This document shows, piece by piece, positions 34,263 to 40,507 of a stretch of DNA of 64,000 bases. The notes under the pieces were generated by a model that was not told the origin of the DNA, searched no databases, and saw nothing but the letters and a program-made list of their open reading frames with translations. The stretch lies in assembly GCA_015075425.1 (NCBI GenBank), contig JABTUL010000004.1:62001-126000 (forward strand), given 5' to 3'. Numbering within the stretch: position 1 is the first letter of the stretch; each line of letters begins with the position of its first letter. A program made the translations under genes and the position numbers. This DNA is from Spirochaetales bacterium (GTDB lineage: Bacteria; Spirochaetota; Leptospiria; Leptospirales; Leptonemataceae).

Positions 34263-35348
34263 GTGAAGTTATTCCGGGCTGTACGCCACCTGCTGATTCA
34301 GATCCTGGGCCACCCGGCCTACAATTTTCTGGCCACTCTGGCAACAGCAGGAAGCATCTGTCTGATTTTTATACCGGCCTTTTTTGATTTGAGCCTGGAG
34401 GGGTCGCGACGCCTCCTTGATCTGGACCATCTCTTGCTTCTTTTGTTCTCCGTTGAGGCTGCGCTGAAATTTATAGCTTCCGGTCGTAGATACCTCCTGC
34501 GGCTGCCCTTCTTCATTGATCTGGCAGTGATTGCCCCGCTTTTTTACTATGTCCTCTGTCAGGAGCTCTATGCACGCGGCTTTATCCTGGATGTTCAGGC
34601 CTGGCAGGAGTTTCCGGGGCTTGATATCCTGAAAGGAGCTCGTATTTTCCGTTTTCTTTACCTTTTCCATTTTTTCTATTCCCTCAAACAGATGGGGCTT
34701 TTTGTCGAAGAGTCAAGGTCCGCAGCCAAAGAGCGGATTTTTGGTGGAATAGCTGCCATTCAGTTCAGCTTCGTCCTTCTTGCTGGCATGGCCAGCTCCT
34801 GGTTTTATGCCAGCCTCAATGAAACCCAGAGACAGACCCGAATTGAACAAATCTCCCAGCACGCGACGGACTACGGGCTGGAACGCACCTATGCCGCCTA
34901 CAAAGAAGAGGTTCTCTATGTGCGCCAGGCTGCCCTGGAAGGGAGCTTTGAAATCAAGAGCCTGGACCCGGCCTATGTTTCGGCTCATTTCCTCTATAAA
35001 AGAGACTACATCCAGATCGATGGGGTGACTCCGGGCGGCACCATCCAGATCAGCTTCCGCGATCTGGTGCAAAATCAGCGCAAGATCGAATTGCTTGTGC
35101 TCTTCATCGGGGCTGTTGTAATCGTTACGCTTCTGTTTGGTCTGAATTACTACTTAAACCAGATTGTCATCCATCCGGTCAGTCGGGCCATGCGGGTCAT
35201 TGAACTGCGCATGGCGGGCGAGGAGCTTGAACACAGTCTGCACGAGGAACAAATCCCCTCTGAAATCACTGCGCTGATCCATAAAGTGGATCTTCTCTAC
35301 CAGCAGATGCGTGAACCCGCTGAATTCATAGAAGCAGTGCCGCAATAA
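34263..35348 (+). CDS. voltage-sensor-like (VSD) / periplasmic domain / HAMP-like membrane protein, copy 1
   Basis: About 361 residues from the GTG at 34263. The frame is open further upstream, but there it is antisense to the phosphatase; the true start is uncertain. Four N-terminal helices match a voltage-sensor domain: S2 LLFSVEAALKFIASG, S3 LPFFIDLAVIAPLF, and S4-like DILKGARIFRFLYLFHFF with Lys/Arg/Arg/His. No pore loop or selectivity filter follows. Instead there is a fifth helix (~165-190), an extracytoplasmic segment of ~100 residues, a sixth helix (ELLVLFIGAVVIVTLLFG) and a HAMP-like end beginning QIVIHPVSRAMRVIELRMAG. The protein at 52527 has the same plan. Function unknown. Confidence 0.72.
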   Translation: MKLFRAVRHLLIQILGHPAYNFLATLATAGSICLIFIPAFFDLSLEGSRRLLDLDHLLLLLFSVEAALKFIASGRRYLLRLPFFIDLAVIAPLFYYVLCQELYARGFILDVQAWQEFPGLDILKGARIFRFLYLFHFFYSLKQMGLFVEESRSAAKERIFGGIAAIQFSFVLLAGMASSWFYASLNETQRQTRIEQISQHATDYGLERTYAAYKEEVLYVRQAALEGSFEIKSLDPAYVSAHFLYKRDYIQIDGVTPGGTIQISFRDLVQNQRKIELLVLFIGAVVIVTLLFGLNYYLNQIVIHPVSRAMRVIELRMAGEELEHSLHEEQIPSEITALIHKVDLLYQQMREPAEFIEAVPQ

Positions 35349-37791
35349 CGCCCTGCCCCTTTGCCAGCGATCCCATGGAACGGGCAAAGGGATTCAAGGG
35401 CCGGTCCGCCGTCCATTTCTCAGCGGTTCCCGTATGAATGGCGGTGACCAGAAGATCACCGGGCTTGATGGCCCCGCTTTCTGCCGTAACTTTCACGGGT
35501 ACCAGCCCGTACAGGGCAACGGGCCGGGTCTCTTCCCCTTCTTTACGGGCGTTGAGCAGGAGAGATACCGATGGCTGAAAAATTCCCATGACTGCAGCAT
35601 TGCGGCTGCGCGATCGGGCCAGCCAGCCATCACGCGAGGAAGCAACCAGAATATCGCCCTCTTCCAGGATTTCCTGGTTCTCGATAAAAAAGTAGGCACC
35701 CAGGCTTGCCTGGCGATGATCCCCCGAGCACTCTACTGTTCCCTGAAAGGCAGAAAGTCCGAGCGCCAGTATGGCCCGGCCTGATGTGGCAATCCCCTGC
35801 CATTCCGAATGAGCGCCAGCGACCAGGGCAAAATCCTGTCCGGAAAACAGTCGACCTCCCGGTCCTTTGAGGCTGGCGCCGGAAATCCCCTCGCCAGAAT
35901 GAGAAAGGCCACTGATTCCCGATTTTTCGCCATAACCCAGTACTCCCTGCGCACCCTGCCCGACAACGCCAGCTGCTCCTTCATTGACTCCATGGATGGG
36001 GCTGTGATCGAACGGAGGCGGATGGATTCCCTCATAGGTTTTTCCTGTTTCTGCTTTGAGCAAAAGCAGGCCCGTATGACTGGAAAATTCATGCTCAACG
36101 GGTGCGTAGTCATGTTCATGGCTTAGCGGCGGGCGGGCATCAGTCAAGCGGGGGTCCTGGGCTTGGACGGCCCGCCCTGCCAGAGTACTTCCCGGCGGAG
36201 CCAGTTCCACGATCCCCGGTGCTTCTTCACTGGCCAGCTTGAGCCGACGATCATGCCCCTGCACCACAACGCCAGCCCGATCCTCTCCATTGGCTGCCAG
36301 TTCCACAATGCCGGCTCGCTCTTCTGTTGCCGGCATGAGCCTCGGGTCACTGCTCTGTACCGCTGCTTCATTTTCTGTTTCCAGCAAGCGAGCAAAACGC
36401 ATGATACCGGCCTGCTCCGTCGTCGCTTTGCGTAAGCGACTGTCGTTGGCCTGTACCACATCGCCGGGCTTATCTGCACCGTCGTGTGATAGACGTACAA
36501 TTCCATGACTGGATTCACTGGCCGGCCGCAGTCGACGATCATGTCCCTGAACCACAACTCCAGGCCTGTCCTCTCCGTCCGCGGCCAGTTCTACAATGCC
36601 CCGGCTTTCTTCCGTTGCCGCCTTCAGGCGGTCATCATCGGATTGCAACGCATGAGCCCGACGGGACTCATTGTTGCGGGCCAGCCGTACAATGCCTGGC
36701 AGATCTTCGCTGGCATATTTCAGCCGACGATCACTTCCCTGCACAGCAACTTCGGGACGGTCCTCCCCGTCACGAGCCAGTTCCACAATACCTTTCATTT
36801 CTGTCGTGGCGTCGCGCAGCCGGCGGTCACTGCCCTGGACCACAATGCCTTCGCGGACTTCACCATCCATGGCCAGTCGCACAATACCGGAGCGCAGCAC
36901 GGAAGCATAAGGCACAGGTTCCGTCTGCTGGCGCGTTTCAAACAGGTCAGGAGCAGCGTAAAGCTCTATTTCTATCAATTGTGATATATATTTACCTTCA
37001 CGTGTTCGTGCGCCCTCCAGAATGATAAGACGCAAATAGCGTACGTTAGTGGGGATGAAGCGCCAGCGGTACCATGTGCCCGGTTCGGCCAAAAATCCAT
37101 TTTCCTCAAAGAGATTGTGCCAGGCGATATTGTCTTCGCTATAGGTAATACGAAATACTTCCGGGAAGAAAGTTTCCCGGTCGTTTTTGCTCAGCAGGCG
37201 GATTTCTGAAACACGGTTCACCGCTCCCAGGTCCATCTGGATAAATTCTTCACGTTTCTGCGATCGCAGCGAGCTTGACCAGCCATATTCCGGCCGCCCA
37301 TCAATTAAATTTTCCCGCACCCACAATCGATCCAGTTCACTGGATACTTCCAGATCTACAAGACCGGAGATCATCAGCCTGAAGGCCCCGAAGGCACTGA
37401 AGTATTTCCCGCTGGAATTGGTTGCATCCGCAAGAAAAAGAAATTTTATATATTTTGTTGTTGTAAGGGCAAAGTTCCAGCTCATGGTGTTGGAAAGACC
37501 GGGCTTGAAATCGCTTTCTTTGAGGATGGGCTCCCAGACCAGTCCATCTGCTGAAACTTCAAACCGGAAAGTTCCCGGAAAAAAATTCCGGTGCTCTGGA
37601 TGGGTTTCAATCTGGATAGCATTGAAGGCTACCTGTCCCTCGAAGATGCCGATGCAACTGACCAGTGTTGGAGTATCCCATTCGGGACTCTGCCAGGCCA
37701 GTATACGACCGGAGTTATCTTCAGTCCGGCCGGGAGCCTGCCATTCAGAAAAGAGTAACAGATCGGGATGGGAAATTCTTACGGATTCCAT
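35326..37791 (-). CDS. discoidin-domain protein with eight 32-residue repeats and tail-spike-like C-terminus
   Basis: 821 residues, with no signal peptide. Residues ~5-145 and ~150-285 read as two F5/8-type C (discoidin) domains (FRFEVSADGLVWEPIL; FRITYSEDNIAWHNLF), which usually bind sugars or lipids. Residues ~297-551 are eight repeats of 32 residues with consensus ATEE--GIVELA-DGEDR-GVVVQG-DRRLK. The last 270 residues are Gly-rich (GVVGQGAQGVLGYGEKSGISG) and end in a domain like the autoproteolytic C-termini of phage tail spikes (GLVPVKVTAESGAIKPGDLLVT). The overall form suggests a fibrous surface or phage-tail-like adhesin. Its stop overlaps the end of the convergent VSD gene by 23 bases, and its start lies 12 bases inside the Rep-like gene. 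Confidence 0.75.
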   Translation of the reverse strand: MESVRISHPDLLLFSEWQAPGRTEDNSGRILAWQSPEWDTPTLVSCIGIFEGQVAFNAIQIETHPEHRNFFPGTFRFEVSADGLVWEPILKESDFKPGLSNTMSWNFALTTTKYIKFLFLADATNSSGKYFSAFGAFRLMISGLVDLEVSSELDRLWVRENLIDGRPEYGWSSSLRSQKREEFIQMDLGAVNRVSEIRLLSKNDRETFFPEVFRITYSEDNIAWHNLFEENGFLAEPGTWYRWRFIPTNVRYLRLIILEGARTREGKYISQLIEIELYAAPDLFETRQQTEPVPYASVLRSGIVRLAMDGEVREGIVVQGSDRRLRDATTEMKGIVELARDGEDRPEVAVQGSDRRLKYASEDLPGIVRLARNNESRRAHALQSDDDRLKAATEESRGIVELAADGEDRPGVVVQGHDRRLRPASESSHGIVRLSHDGADKPGDVVQANDSRLRKATTEQAGIMRFARLLETENEAAVQSSDPRLMPATEERAGIVELAANGEDRAGVVVQGHDRRLKLASEEAPGIVELAPPGSTLAGRAVQAQDPRLTDARPPLSHEHDYAPVEHEFSSHTGLLLLKAETGKTYEGIHPPPFDHSPIHGVNEGAAGVVGQGAQGVLGYGEKSGISGLSHSGEGISGASLKGPGGRLFSGQDFALVAGAHSEWQGIATSGRAILALGLSAFQGTVECSGDHRQASLGAYFFIENQEILEEGDILVASSRDGWLARSRSRNAAVMGIFQPSVSLLLNARKEGEETRPVALYGLVPVKVTAESGAIKPGDLLVTAIHTGTAEKWTADRPLNPFARSMGSLAKGQGVIAALLL
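36139..36903 (-). repeat. eight tandem 96-bp coding repeats
   Basis: The DNA encoding the eight 32-residue units of the discoidin protein. Units 2, 4 and 7 are closest to each other (GIVELA-DGEDR). Units 3, 5 and 6 have diverged. The strict 96-bp period keeps the frame, so unequal crossing-over could change repeat number. Confidence 0.75.
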
Positions 37792-38513
37792 GAATCGGCT
37801 CCTGCGGGATTCCTGGAAATCAGAAGATCATTTGCAAAATACACCCGGGAACAAACCTGCTCCAGAAGGGCTTTGAGGTGTTCTGGAAGCGAATCAGAAA
37901 AAATATAGAGGTCGTTTTCTGTCGAGAGGAGGGCTTCTTTCATCATTCGCAGACTGCTGGCGGATATTTGTCCGGCCAGGGCTTTCTCAATTTCCGACCA
38001 TGATGCTCTTTTGCCTTCGACTGTCGGGTAAAGTCTTTTTTGTTCGGCCTCAGGAGTGGCATCGTGGGCGAGAGGCACCCCTGCTGGATTATTGGTTATA
38101 GATATATGTACATGGTTGTACGGCTGGCCGACCCGAAGCGCCCCAGCGGCAGGCCCACCTGCTCCCCTGCGGGGCGCGGACACACCCCCCTGCGGGGCAG
38201 CAGCGTGTCCCTCAGGAGAGCAGGCCCAGTCCATGCGGAAGTGGTAGTAGCTGTTCTTGCGGCCATTTCCCCGGGAGACGGTGATCAAGCCGAGTTCCAC
38301 CAGCTCCTCGCGGGCTTTCCGCAGAGTAGATTTCTGCTTAAAACCAGTCAATTTCAGCAGAACGGTGGTGCCGGGGAACACAGGCTTGAACTGTCCATCA
38401 GAAAAGCGTAGCAAAGCCGGGTACAGGGCCCGGGCAGCAGCAGACATTCGGGCCCACAGGCCGCTGTCAAAAAGCGCAGTTACCAGCTTGGCGTAGGGTA
38501 AATCTTTTCCCAT
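37779..38513 (-). CDS. Rep-like winged-helix protein
   Basis: 244 residues from the ATG at 38513, chosen because GAGGT lies four bases upstream of it; the frame extends 21 codons further without a ribosome site. Residues ~15-95 look like a winged-helix domain of the plasmid/phage replication type (LYPALLRFSDGQFKPVFPG, LLKLTGFKQKSTLRKAREELVELGLITVSRGNGRK, YYHFRMD). A Pro/Gly/Ala-rich linker follows (~100-130), then a helical C-terminal part. It stands directly downstream of parA-parB on the same strand and behind an antisense RNA-like unit, which is the usual setting of a replication initiator. No catalytic motif proves this. Confidence 0.65.
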   Translation of the reverse strand: MGKDLPYAKLVTALFDSGLWARMSAAARALYPALLRFSDGQFKPVFPGTTVLLKLTGFKQKSTLRKAREELVELGLITVSRGNGRKNSYYHFRMDWACSPEGHAAAPQGGVSAPRRGAGGPAAGALRVGQPYNHVHISITNNPAGVPLAHDATPEAEQKRLYPTVEGKRASWSEIEKALAGQISASSLRMMKEALLSTENDLYIFSDSLPEHLKALLEQVCSRVYFANDLLISRNPAGADSWNP

Positions 38514-38551
38514 ACAGACCTCACAAAATCTGATTTGCGGGGCTTTTTTGT

Positions 38552-38579
38552 TTGACAGGGGAATAAAACGACACATTAT
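38552..38579 (+). promoter_or_regulatory. promoter of candidate antisense RNA
   Basis: A perfect -35 box TTGACA (38552-38557) is followed after 16 bases by CATTAT (38574-38579, four of six matches). It points away from the Rep gene, opposite to the Rep message. A start near 38586 is expected. Confidence 0.55.
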
Positions 38580-38585
38580 GTCGCT

Positions 38586-38645
38586 ACCAACATTTCCCTT
38601 TTGGAAGCCCCGCCCCTCACCGTTCCCGGAGAGGGGCTTTTTTTT
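38586..38645 (+). ncRNA. candidate antisense (countertranscript) RNA to the Rep leader
   Basis: A plus-strand transcript of about 60 bases would run from the TTGACA/CATTAT promoter to a strong terminator, wholly opposite the untranslated leader of the Rep-like gene and with no coding capacity of its own. This is the arrangement of copy-number control RNAs in plasmids. It would pair with the leader over its full length. Inferred from promoter and terminator positions only. Confidence 0.5.
38612..38645 (+). terminator. intrinsic terminator of the antisense RNA
   Basis: GCCCCTC (38612-38618) and GAGGGGC (38631-38637) pair perfectly around a 12-base loop and are followed by eight T (38638-38645). 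There is no T-run on the minus-strand side, so it works only on plus-strand transcription although both flanking genes are on the minus strand. Confidence 0.8.
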
Positions 38646-38649
38646 GCCT

Positions 38650-38686
38650 CATAATTTTATTATGTCTCATTCGCTGTCAAGCATTT
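38650..38686 (-). promoter_or_regulatory. candidate promoter of the Rep-like gene
   Basis: The minus strand reads TTGACA, then about 15 bases, then TAAAAT, inside the AT-rich palindrome CATAAT-TTT-ATTATG (38650-38664). Transcription from here would give a leader of about 140 bases that crosses the antisense-RNA region before the Rep ATG. Spacing is a little short. Confidence 0.4.
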
Positions 38687-38771
38687 TTAAATATTGCGAA
38701 TGTTCTGTACTGTGTACGATTGCAAGTACGTAAGACTGGCGAAGGAAGATTGCCTGGCTCCAGGCATAAAT

Positions 38772-39587
38772 TCATGTCAGCAGGCGATGGAGTTGCCGCT
38801 GAACGTTTCTTTCCAGTTTTTCTGCCTGGTCTTCGCTTTCGCAGGTAATGACCACCTGATGTTTGCGGCGCTGGACGGAAATTTTTTCTGCCTGGTTCCA
38901 GGCGTTATTTTTCTCTTCGCCGTTGCTTTTTCTCGCCCTCCCCTGCAGATAATCCCTGGCCTGTCGAACCGTAGCGATCTCACCTGTGCGGATAGCCTGC
39001 AAAAAAGGATCCAAATTTCCTTTGCGCTGCGCCTGCGCCGCCTGGATCATGAGATTGCGGGACTGGATTCCTGCTGCTATGCAGGCCTCCAGGACGGGAC
39101 TTTCCAGGCTGGCAATGCTCAATATTTCCGTGACATAGTTACGGGATTTCCCGACAAGGCCTGCCAGCTCAGCATCGCTAAGATCCTCTTGCTTCTTCAG
39201 GCGCAAAAGGGCCTGGGCTTCTTCCTCCGGTCGCAGATCTTCCCTCTGCAGATTTTCAATGATAGCAATGCGCCAGTAGTCGCGCTCTTCCCGGGAAATG
39301 ATCCGGCACTCGATATCGGTCCAGCCAAGCTTCTGTGCGGCCCTAAACCGGCGCTCGCCAGCAATGACGCGGTAGCCCTCCCCTTCCCTTGTCACCACGA
39401 TCGGCGAGAGCAAGCCCTCCCGCTGCAAAGAGCTGGCCAGGTCATCCAGGTTCACGGTTGCGTCCTGCCGGGGTTGCTCAGCGGACGGCTTGATGCGCTC
39501 CAGTTTCAGGCGAGTGATGGCACCATCGAGGTGCTCACTCTGGTAGATTTCCGCAAGGCTCCCCAGTTTTTTATGCTTTGAGCTCAT
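38772..39587 (-). CDS. parB: ParB-family partition protein
   Basis: 271 residues. ParB is the CTP-dependent clamp that loads at parS sites and works with ParA in DNA segregation. Seen are IKPSAEQPRQ near the N-terminus, the GYRVIAGERRFRAAQKLG box of the CTP-binding domain, IIENLQREDLRPEEEAQAL, and the HTH region LSDAELAGLVGKSRNYVTEIL. The C-terminal ~60 residues are basic and Gln-rich and should dimerise. It overlaps the end of parA by 17 bases, so the two are co-translated. Confidence 0.92.
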   Translation of the reverse strand: MSSKHKKLGSLAEIYQSEHLDGAITRLKLERIKPSAEQPRQDATVNLDDLASSLQREGLLSPIVVTREGEGYRVIAGERRFRAAQKLGWTDIECRIISREERDYWRIAIIENLQREDLRPEEEAQALLRLKKQEDLSDAELAGLVGKSRNYVTEILSIASLESPVLEACIAAGIQSRNLMIQAAQAQRKGNLDPFLQAIRTGEIATVRQARDYLQGRARKSNGEEKNNAWNQAEKISVQRRKHQVVITCESEDQAEKLERNVQRQLHRLLT

Positions 39588-40329
39588 GGCAAAGCTCCTT
39601 CATGAAGTCGCGGTATTCTGCCGCCTGTTTAGAATCCGGGGCATAATCGAAAATGGACTTGCTGGCCAGATGACTTTCCCCGACGGCCACTCCAGCGCTG
39701 ATGGTTGCTTTGAATACCGGAAAGAATTGGGAAACAACGGGCAGAATGGTCTTGGTCAGGACGGTCTTGGGTTTGAGCTGCGTAACCAGAGCCCCCAGGA
39801 TCTCCAGATCCGGGTTGATCCGCCTTTTGATGGAATTGATGGTCGTTTGTAGCCCGCTCATGCCATCTATGCTGAATTTTTCTGCCTGGGCCGGGACCAC
39901 CACGTGTGTGGCGGCGACCAGAGCATTTATGGTAAAAATGGAAAGGCTGGGCGGACAATCGATGATGATGAATTTGAAATCGTTTTTGACGGGGGATAGC
40001 GCATCCCGGAGGATGTAGGGAGCATCTACGTTCAGACTGTAGGATTCAACTTCAGCCAGAGTGATTTTTGAGGGAGCGACTTTCAGCAGCGGCTCGCTTG
40101 TGGGTAGAAGGATATCGGCAAGGGAAACCTGGCCGGAAAAGACGTTGTAGAGCGATTTTTCCAGCTTGTCTGGATTGGTAAAGATTCCCGTGGTGTTTGC
40201 CTGAGGATCCATGTCGATGAGCAGTGTAGCCTTTTTATCTTTGGCCAGAGCAAAGGCTAGGTTGAGAGCCGTCGTGGTCTTTCCCTCGCCTCCTTTCTGG
40301 TTGGTGATCGCTATGATTCGAGCACTCAT
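39571..40329 (-). CDS. parA: ParA-family partition ATPase
   Basis: 252 residues. ParA is the deviant-Walker ATPase that positions DNA during segregation. The P-loop reads NQKGGEGKTTTALNLA (signature Lys present; the common Val in KGGVGK is Glu). Other motifs are LLIDMDPQANTTG (A') and FIIIDCPPSLSIFTINAL (Walker B). It lacks an N-terminal DNA-binding extension, so it is of the short chromosomal/type Ib class. It is divergent from the activator-like gene at 40518, with the palindromes between them. Confidence 0.95.
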   Translation of the reverse strand: MSARIIAITNQKGGEGKTTTALNLAFALAKDKKATLLIDMDPQANTTGIFTNPDKLEKSLYNVFSGQVSLADILLPTSEPLLKVAPSKITLAEVESYSLNVDAPYILRDALSPVKNDFKFIIIDCPPSLSIFTINALVAATHVVVPAQAEKFSIDGMSGLQTTINSIKRRINPDLEILGALVTQLKPKTVLTKTILPVVSQFFPVFKATISAGVAVGESHLASKSIFDYAPDSKQAAEYRDFMKELCHELKA

Positions 40330-40344
40330 GAGATGGACCTGTGT

Positions 40345-40369
40345 GACATAATGTTCTGCAACGCATTAT
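40345..40369. repeat. inverted repeat ATAATG-N10-CATTAT upstream of parA
   Basis: ATAATG (40348-40353) and CATTAT (40364-40369) are perfect complements 16-40 bases upstream of the parA start. The octamer GACATAAT (40345-40352) also occurs, as ATTATGTC, twice in the Rep control region (38575-38582 and 38659-38666). A shared autoregulatory site is possible. Confidence 0.4.
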
Positions 40370-40435: not shown

Positions 40436-40451
40436 TGTCGGACATCCGACA
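40436..40451. promoter_or_regulatory. palindrome TGTCGGACATCCGACA (site 1)
   Basis: Two 7-bp arms (TGTCGGA / TCCGACA) around a central CA. It lies in the parA/activator divergent region, 107 bases before parA. The second copy begins exactly 56 bases further on. Candidate parS or operator. Confidence 0.6.
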
Positions 40452-40491: not shown

Positions 40492-40507
40492 TGTCGGATG
40501 TCCGACG
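40492..40507. promoter_or_regulatory. palindrome TGTCGGATGTCCGACG (site 2)
   Basis: The same 7-bp arms as site 1 with the inverted centre TG and one mismatch at the last base. It ends 11 bases before the ATG of the activator-like gene, so it overlaps the ribosome-binding region or promoter of that gene. A bound protein would affect its expression. Confidence 0.6.

Follow-up and report, generated by a model that had tools for sequence, protein, structure and literature searches.

Chromids, in the account of a 2018 review, are of two major types by their replication control, iteron and repABC, and repABC is found only in alphaproteobacteria (PMC6090056; this and the other papers cited here by number are used in part). 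In repABC replicons, including those of chromids, the order is parA, parB, antisense RNA, initiator: the RNA (RepE or ctRNA) lies between repB and repC, is about 50 nt long and ends in a terminator, and the leader that it binds has two alternative folds (PMC6090056). In the repABC and pT181 models, antisense binding makes a Rho-independent terminator form in the leader, i.e., transcription is attenuated (PMC6090056, PMC5703833). The RepA_N plasmids of the pSK41 type in staphylococci also have an antisense RNA to the rep leader (RNAI), for which the proposed effect is sequestering of the ribosome site, and the pPR9-type initiator has an N-terminal HTH_36 domain (pfam13730) and a pSK41-like control region upstream (PMC5703833).

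The locus described here comes from a spirochaete genome of 4.13 Mb, where it lies on a contig of 249,708 bp (C4). By the window we mean the whole stretch of 64,000 nucleotides that was analyzed. The original prediction placed an antisense-RNA control unit in the leader of a Rep-like gene: a TTGACA-16-CATTAT promoter followed by a strong terminator on the plus strand, although both flanking genes lie on the minus strand. Direct reading confirms the layout. Promoter and terminator run from 38552 to 38645 of the plus strand, with the terminator hairpin 32 bases past the -10 box, and parB and rep are both on the minus strand (Table 1). We take 38513 as the start of rep; the start in the list of open reading frames, 38576, is a longer in-frame opening. 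Because the rep mRNA is predicted to start near 38644, from the minus-strand promoter at 38680-38651, the antisense RNA would cover its first 60 nt or so and would end right at this start, and given that start the claimed full complementarity to the Rep leader holds as well.

Table 1. Features of the parA-parB-rep region, in window coordinates
Feature	Position	Strand	Description
rep	37779-38513	-	244 aa, initiator-like; HTH_36 winged helix and a DnaA-domain-I-like C-terminal domain (weakly supported)
rep 5' leader	38514-38644	-	In order: terminator complement, arm A (GGGGCUUCC), antisense-promoter complement, arm C (AAGCCCCGC), Shine-Dalgarno hairpin
Arm C	38537-38545	-	AAGCCCCGC in rep mRNA; upstream of rep ribosome site
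Antisense RNA promoter	38552-38579	+	TTGACA-16-CATTAT; -35 TTGACA 38552-38557, -10 CATTAT 38574-38579; from sequence and promoter scan
Conserved element	38575-38582		GACATAAT/ATTATGTC; antisense promoter, overlapping its -10
Predicted antisense RNA	38586-38645	+	About 57-60 nt; 5' tail ACCAACA, small UUCC..GGAA hairpin, terminator hairpin
Arm A	38605-38613	-	GCGGGGCUU in rep mRNA; covered by antisense RNA
Intrinsic terminator	38612-38645	+	7-bp stem GCCCCTC 38612-38618 / GAGGGGC 38631-38637, inner CCG/CGG, eight T 38638-38645
Predicted rep promoter	38651-38680	-	TTGACA-18-AATTAT, with GACATAAT between its two boxes
Conserved element	38659-38666		GACATAAT or its reverse complement; rep promoter
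parB	38772-39587	-	Contains the cumulative GC-skew minimum of the contig (39421)
parA	39571-40329	-	Upstream of parB
Third conserved element	40345-40352	+	GACATAAT; parA promoter
Candidate parS	40436-40451		TGTCGGACATCCGACA; palindrome
Candidate parS	40492-40507		TGTCGGATGTCCGACG; palindrome

None of 200 shuffles folds as well as the predicted antisense RNA (z -3.38). Its promoter alone is not beyond chance, because it is one of three found by the scan in 6 kb and shuffled sequences yield 2.6. Taken by itself, this chance frequency would fit the view that the plus-strand promoter and terminator are an accident or a remnant without function. We think this very improbable indeed, given that the unit is kept in 36 of 38 leaders and that a covariance model detects it across families. 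To obtain these leaders, Rep matches were collected across the window's class, where 36 of 48 genomes gave 37 loci (one genome has two), and L. interrogans brought the total to 38; the relatives compared include Leptospiraceae, Leptospirales and Spirochaetia metagenome-assembled genomes. A leader was scored as positive if an opposite-strand promoter lay within 80 nt upstream of rep and a terminator tail followed at 35-95 nt from its -10 box. The promoter spacer could be 14-19; the range had been 15-19 and was broadened once, when initial results had been inspected. This conserved pairing of an opposite-strand promoter with a terminator, as expected in the leader of an antisense-controlled initiator, was found in 36 of 38 Rep leaders. 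Among 7,600 dinucleotide shuffles, 35 had it, and when the window was cut into 1,110 tiles, 3 did. Promoter and terminator at this spacing are far beyond chance. In the positive leaders, the tail lies 50-78 nt past the -10 box, and the place, strand, length and architecture of the unit are all kept, which supports the predicted antisense-RNA control unit.

Most of these RNAs begin with a 5' tail of CCAACA or CCATTCA, and they share the small UUCC..GGAA hairpin and the terminator. The letters of the terminator stems vary while the pairing is kept, as judged from pair types counted from the base of the stem in 36 RNAs, but this is supportive only, because the stems were picked by requiring pairing. 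(Counting was by stem position, as a MAFFT alignment of 35 of the RNAs, with G047 left out, did not line up the stems.) In the two leaders that failed, we found no antisense unit in G027, which retains Rep and parA and looks like a natural loss, and in G038 the promoter and 5' end look intact but no terminator passes. Rep can therefore live without the unit or with a variant of it. One genome, G033, has two modules (L073 and L074). Their antisense RNAs are largely alike in the 5' half, and most of the differences between them fall in the terminator hairpin; this reflects either two strains in the bin or specificity in the terminator loop.

The promoters have an element in common, GACATAAT. In the 400 bases upstream of rep, 37 of 38 loci have the string GACATAA in one direction or the other (4.8% of shuffles), and 29 of 38 have it twice or more (0.1% of shuffles); it overlaps the antisense -10 box in 29 of 36. 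Three of the five GACATAAT copies on C4 are inside the parA-parB-rep module, and the copy at the parA promoter is also present in relatives G004, G008 and G021. It looks like an operator, or else a -10 variant. That the promoters of rep, parA and the antisense RNA all have it points to a possible second layer of control, by a protein that would bind this shared element. The arrangement of the promoters also bears on another way to lower rep expression, namely convergent transcription rather than RNA pairing. In the window, the antisense and rep promoters are convergent and their predicted start sites are separated by about 60 bp, which speaks for such interference. In some relatives, however, the GACATAA of the likely rep promoter is far off (-389 in G008, -351 in L. 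interrogans) and the length of the antisense RNA is still near 57. Furthermore, interference requires neither a conserved RNA 5' end nor a hairpin, so we doubt very much that it is the main effect.

We trained a covariance model (R1; 58 positions, 6 pairs) on 15 of the 19 RNAs in the window's family, among them that of the window itself, and ran it over 44 sources. It matches the window at 38585-38644 of the plus strand, which is a training sequence. Among the 23 non-training Rep loci, it finds 13 at the expected place and strand with E<=1, and the copy on L. interrogans chromosome II has E 6.2e-5. There were two off-target matches (L071:5344 and L097:12293). In G027, G038 and 12 genomes that had given no Rep match, R1 found nothing (0 of 14), which shows little because the model is weak for distant families. 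At the gathering score, Rfam reported only a tRNA in the window and no family at the unit. The best sub-threshold match in the 401 bases searched was suhB (E 0.031, 21.5 bits against a cut-off of 41), which we read as likeness of the terminator and rejected.

We also took 11 rep loci of Leptospira plasmids from 107 records. These were kept out of the 38 because their leaders differ, as judged by reading, and because R1 matches none of the 11. Their parB-rep gap (L086-L096) has a different control region, with a hairpin upstream of the rep promoter. The loop of this hairpin (e.g., GGTTAGAG) is by eye complementary to a loop of the leader (CTCTAACC), and both loops appear to change together in several plasmids (L087, L091 and L095) but not in L096. 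It is possible that these plasmids use a trans-acting RNA that pairs by its loop.

What is a plasmid-type layout doing beside housekeeping genes? This puzzle of the original prediction is resolved by the position of the unit, at the origin-like region of an apparent chromid. The cumulative GC-skew minimum of C4 is at window position 39421, inside parB (the skew is negative to about 100 kb, positive to about 170 kb and mixed beyond), the window contains the core genes thrS (threonyl-tRNA synthetase), ispH and ahcY (adenosylhomocysteinase), and a DnaA-family gene is on C1. Because the skew minimum is in parB, thrS and ispH are present and dnaA is on another contig, C4 is most likely a chromid. 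Its apparent origin has replication and partition genes of plasmid type, apart from dnaA, and core genes are present as well. The ends of C4 do not overlap; the related records, L. interrogans chromosome II (NZ_CP020413.2, 350,181 bp) and T. parva pTURPA.01 (25,287 bp), are circular.

Gene order is conserved as well. A Fis-like regulator and a hypothetical gene are divergent from the module, followed by parA, parB, the unit, rep and a discoidin-domain gene. L. interrogans chromosome II has the same order, and so has pTURPA.01 except for an additional small gene that follows rep. We read the replication core of C4 as orthologous to that of Leptospira chromosome II; the two are alike in gene order, antisense unit and related Rep, and they differ in leader sequence. 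The discoidin gene, next after rep in these two records also, encodes a protein of F5/8 type C repeats (35326-37791 in the window). The palindrome TGTCGGAYRTCCGACA, with up to 1 mismatch, has only two sites in the 4.13-Mb genome, both upstream of parA, and these are our candidates for parS. Its core is present in one to three copies in 10 of 10 chromid-type long loci examined in other genomes, and in none of the 11 Leptospira plasmid loci. In G024, the module (L081, G024:C2:1178000-1192000) is on a contig of 1.41 Mb; it may therefore have integrated into, or grown into, a large replicon.

In L. interrogans, the predicted antisense RNA is at 295,141-295,199 of NZ_CP020413.2 (L071:4845-4903) and rep starts at 295,297. 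A published transcript interval lies over this unit. LIC2nc40 is a transcribed non-coding region of chromosome 2 (348,946-349,168), in the 5' UTR of LIC20276 (Caimano et al. 2014, PMC3953431). It was listed without RT-PCR validation (PMC3953431) and detected again (PMC5243855), and the consulted parts of both papers report it only as an uncharacterised sRNA candidate. The mapping assumes that NZ_CP020413.2, a record from the same serovar, corresponds to the Copenhageni chromosome rotated but not inverted. If LIC2nc10 (159,019-159,243) contains the cobalamin aptamer, which is at 105,100-105,279 of NZ_CP020413.2, then coordinate arithmetic gives an offset of -53,964 to -53,919, which moves the start of LIC2nc40 to 294,982-295,027 and its end to 295,204-295,249. 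The interval covers the predicted antisense RNA at every allowed offset; this is an overlap of intervals, as the consulted parts of the source give no strand. The antisense RNA gene may be the explanation for LIC2nc40.

The target of this control would be an initiator of the HTH_36 type. HTH_36 (PF13730) matches the window Rep at 33.9 bits (cut-off 25) and was matched in all 11 aligned Reps at E<=1. For the winged helix in a structure model of Rep, the best matches are 4pql (Z 9.9, 99 aligned, rmsd 5.0), 4pt7 (Z 9.7, 86, 2.9) and 5kbj (Z 9.0, 87, 2.8), and Foldseek gives E 0.013 for 4pql, which is fold likeness only. The structure listing names the three as DNA binding protein, initiator and Rep-DNA complex, and we take them to be N-terminal domains of staphylococcal RepA, so the closest solved fold is presumably that of the pSK41 type. 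Unlike pSK41 Rep, with which it shares the winged-helix N-terminal fold, the window Rep lacks a RepA_N match, and RepA_N was absent among Pfam matches at E<=1 in all 11 Reps. The RepC N-domain (RP-C) appears in 1 of the 11, at E 0.15, under the cut-off and as a sequence-profile match only. The C-terminal domain is predicted to be mixed alpha/beta (helix-helix-strand-strand-helix-strand), whereas pSK41 Rep has five helices there; the pPR9-type initiator, compared by description, has the C-terminal part of pSK41 Rep (PMC5703833). Foldseek found nothing for our C-terminal domain (best E 0.84). In a second structure comparison, DnaA domain I came first, with Z 4.1, but was tied with unrelated folds, so this modeled likeness is a weak lead. 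The RepC and DnaD folds were missing from the match lists of the C-terminal domain, which excludes neither. Searches with Rep gave no match in phages, and all plasmid matches were from Leptospira or Turneriella (the window Rep matched 3 records and the L. interrogans Rep 107).

How might the RNA act on Rep? We consider it quite likely that it brakes the translation of Rep by a switch between arms of the leader and so controls the copy number of the apparent chromid, keeping it low. An RNA of about 57-60 nt, transcribed against the rep mRNA, would repress the initiator of a replicon of about 250 kb. When replicon copies are few and the RNA is scarce, arm A would pair with arm C; this pairing would compete with the hairpin around the rep Shine-Dalgarno site, and translation of Rep would follow. 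When copies are many and the RNA is abundant, arm A would be covered and arm C left to local structure, the ribosome site would stay closed, and initiation would stop.

The window leader, too, folds better than its shuffles (z -3.85). In its minimum-free-energy fold, GGGGCUU (arm A) is paired to AAGCCCC (arm C), which overlaps the GCGGGGCUU/AAGCCCCGC pairing of Table 1. If the region covered by the antisense RNA is barred from pairing, 31 of 36 leaders have a rep ribosome site that is harder to open, and one leader has a site that is easier to open. Because this bias exists partly for any sequence, arm A was shuffled as a control. Relative to these controls, 27 of 36 leaders are above the shuffled mean and p<0.05 is attained by 7 of 36; for the family of the window, the corresponding numbers are 17 and 5 of 19. 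The window itself has p 0.082 and L. interrogans p 0.016. In direct tests of duplexes between arm A and the downstream leader, 7 of 36 leaders reach p<0.05 and the Turneriella group has no such pairing. The local fold at the rep ribosome site has a median z of -1.34. These counts are not independent because the leaders are related. So of the RNA switch in the original prediction, which had named leader folding with and without the antisense RNA as a check, the direction stands (31 of 36 leaders, and 17 of 19 in the family), but significance against shuffled arm A is reached in few leaders and not in the window. We regard the switch as moderately supported.

Attenuation, as in the repABC and pT181 models, would be another use for such a leader, and the window does have something like it: at 38558-38583 of the sense (minus) strand, a small hairpin (CGACAUAAUGUGUCG/CGACATAATGTGTCG) is followed by UUUUAUU (TTTTATT). 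But a local sense-strand terminator is found in just 3 of 36 leaders, as compared to 37 of 1,800 shuffles (2.1%), so the attenuator is not a conserved part, and antisense-induced termination is an unlikely explanation. Given this and the folding results, we favor control mainly at translation.

Translation could also be reached without the switch. In plasmids R1 (tap) and ColIb (repY), an antisense RNA blocks the coupling of a leader peptide to the initiator. In the window, the 5' end of the antisense RNA covers GGGAAATG, a possible leader start, and either direct occlusion or blocked coupling to rep could follow. Several relatives (e.g., G008, G018, G010, G009 and G021) do have leader open reading frames that extend up to the rep start or past it. 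On the other hand, frame and length vary among relatives, and the window's own frame from GGGAAATG encodes MLVAT and stops at once, which makes this reading improbable too.

Returning to translational control by the two arms, is this then a repABC system? The order of parA, parB and initiator, with an antisense RNA that ends in a terminator in the parB-initiator gap, is that of repABC, and so are the length of the RNA, the alternative folds of the leader and the occurrence in an apparent chromid. The differences are that the window belongs to another phylum, that its initiator is of the HTH_36 type, with the RepC N-domain match mentioned above, and that rep has its own predicted promoter (with read-through from parB also possible). 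Nor is a Rho-independent terminator upstream of the initiator's ribosome site a regular feature, with 3 of 36 leaders having one. We do not file the system as repABC because the RepC match of the initiator stays under the cut-off and because few leaders have the attenuator. In proposed mechanism, pSK41 is nearer than repABC. By analogy with these systems, our best reading is that the module is an analogue of repABC control with an HTH_36 initiator and would act mainly on translation.

The literature searched yielded no description of the control of Leptospira's second chromosome. The portions of PMC4338851 and PMC4140679 that we consulted do not mention "antisense," and those of PMC13224635 do not mention "replication," "parB" or "partition." We lean slightly towards a broader reading, that there is a third type of chromid control beside iteron and repABC: a module found across this class of spirochaetes, with a pair of parS sites, parA, parB, an antisense RNA of about 57 nt, an HTH_36 initiator and a GACATAAT operator on three promoters, whose layout is independent of repABC and which would limit a second chromosome, that of L. 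interrogans among them, to roughly one copy per cell cycle. Under this reading, LIC2nc40 is or contains the antisense RNA. With an RNA of defined length, a promoter and a target, the control of Leptospira chromosome II becomes directly testable. If the reading is true, then an orphan transcript from RNA-seq would be explained, and the layout of parA, parB, antisense RNA and initiator would have evolved more than once.
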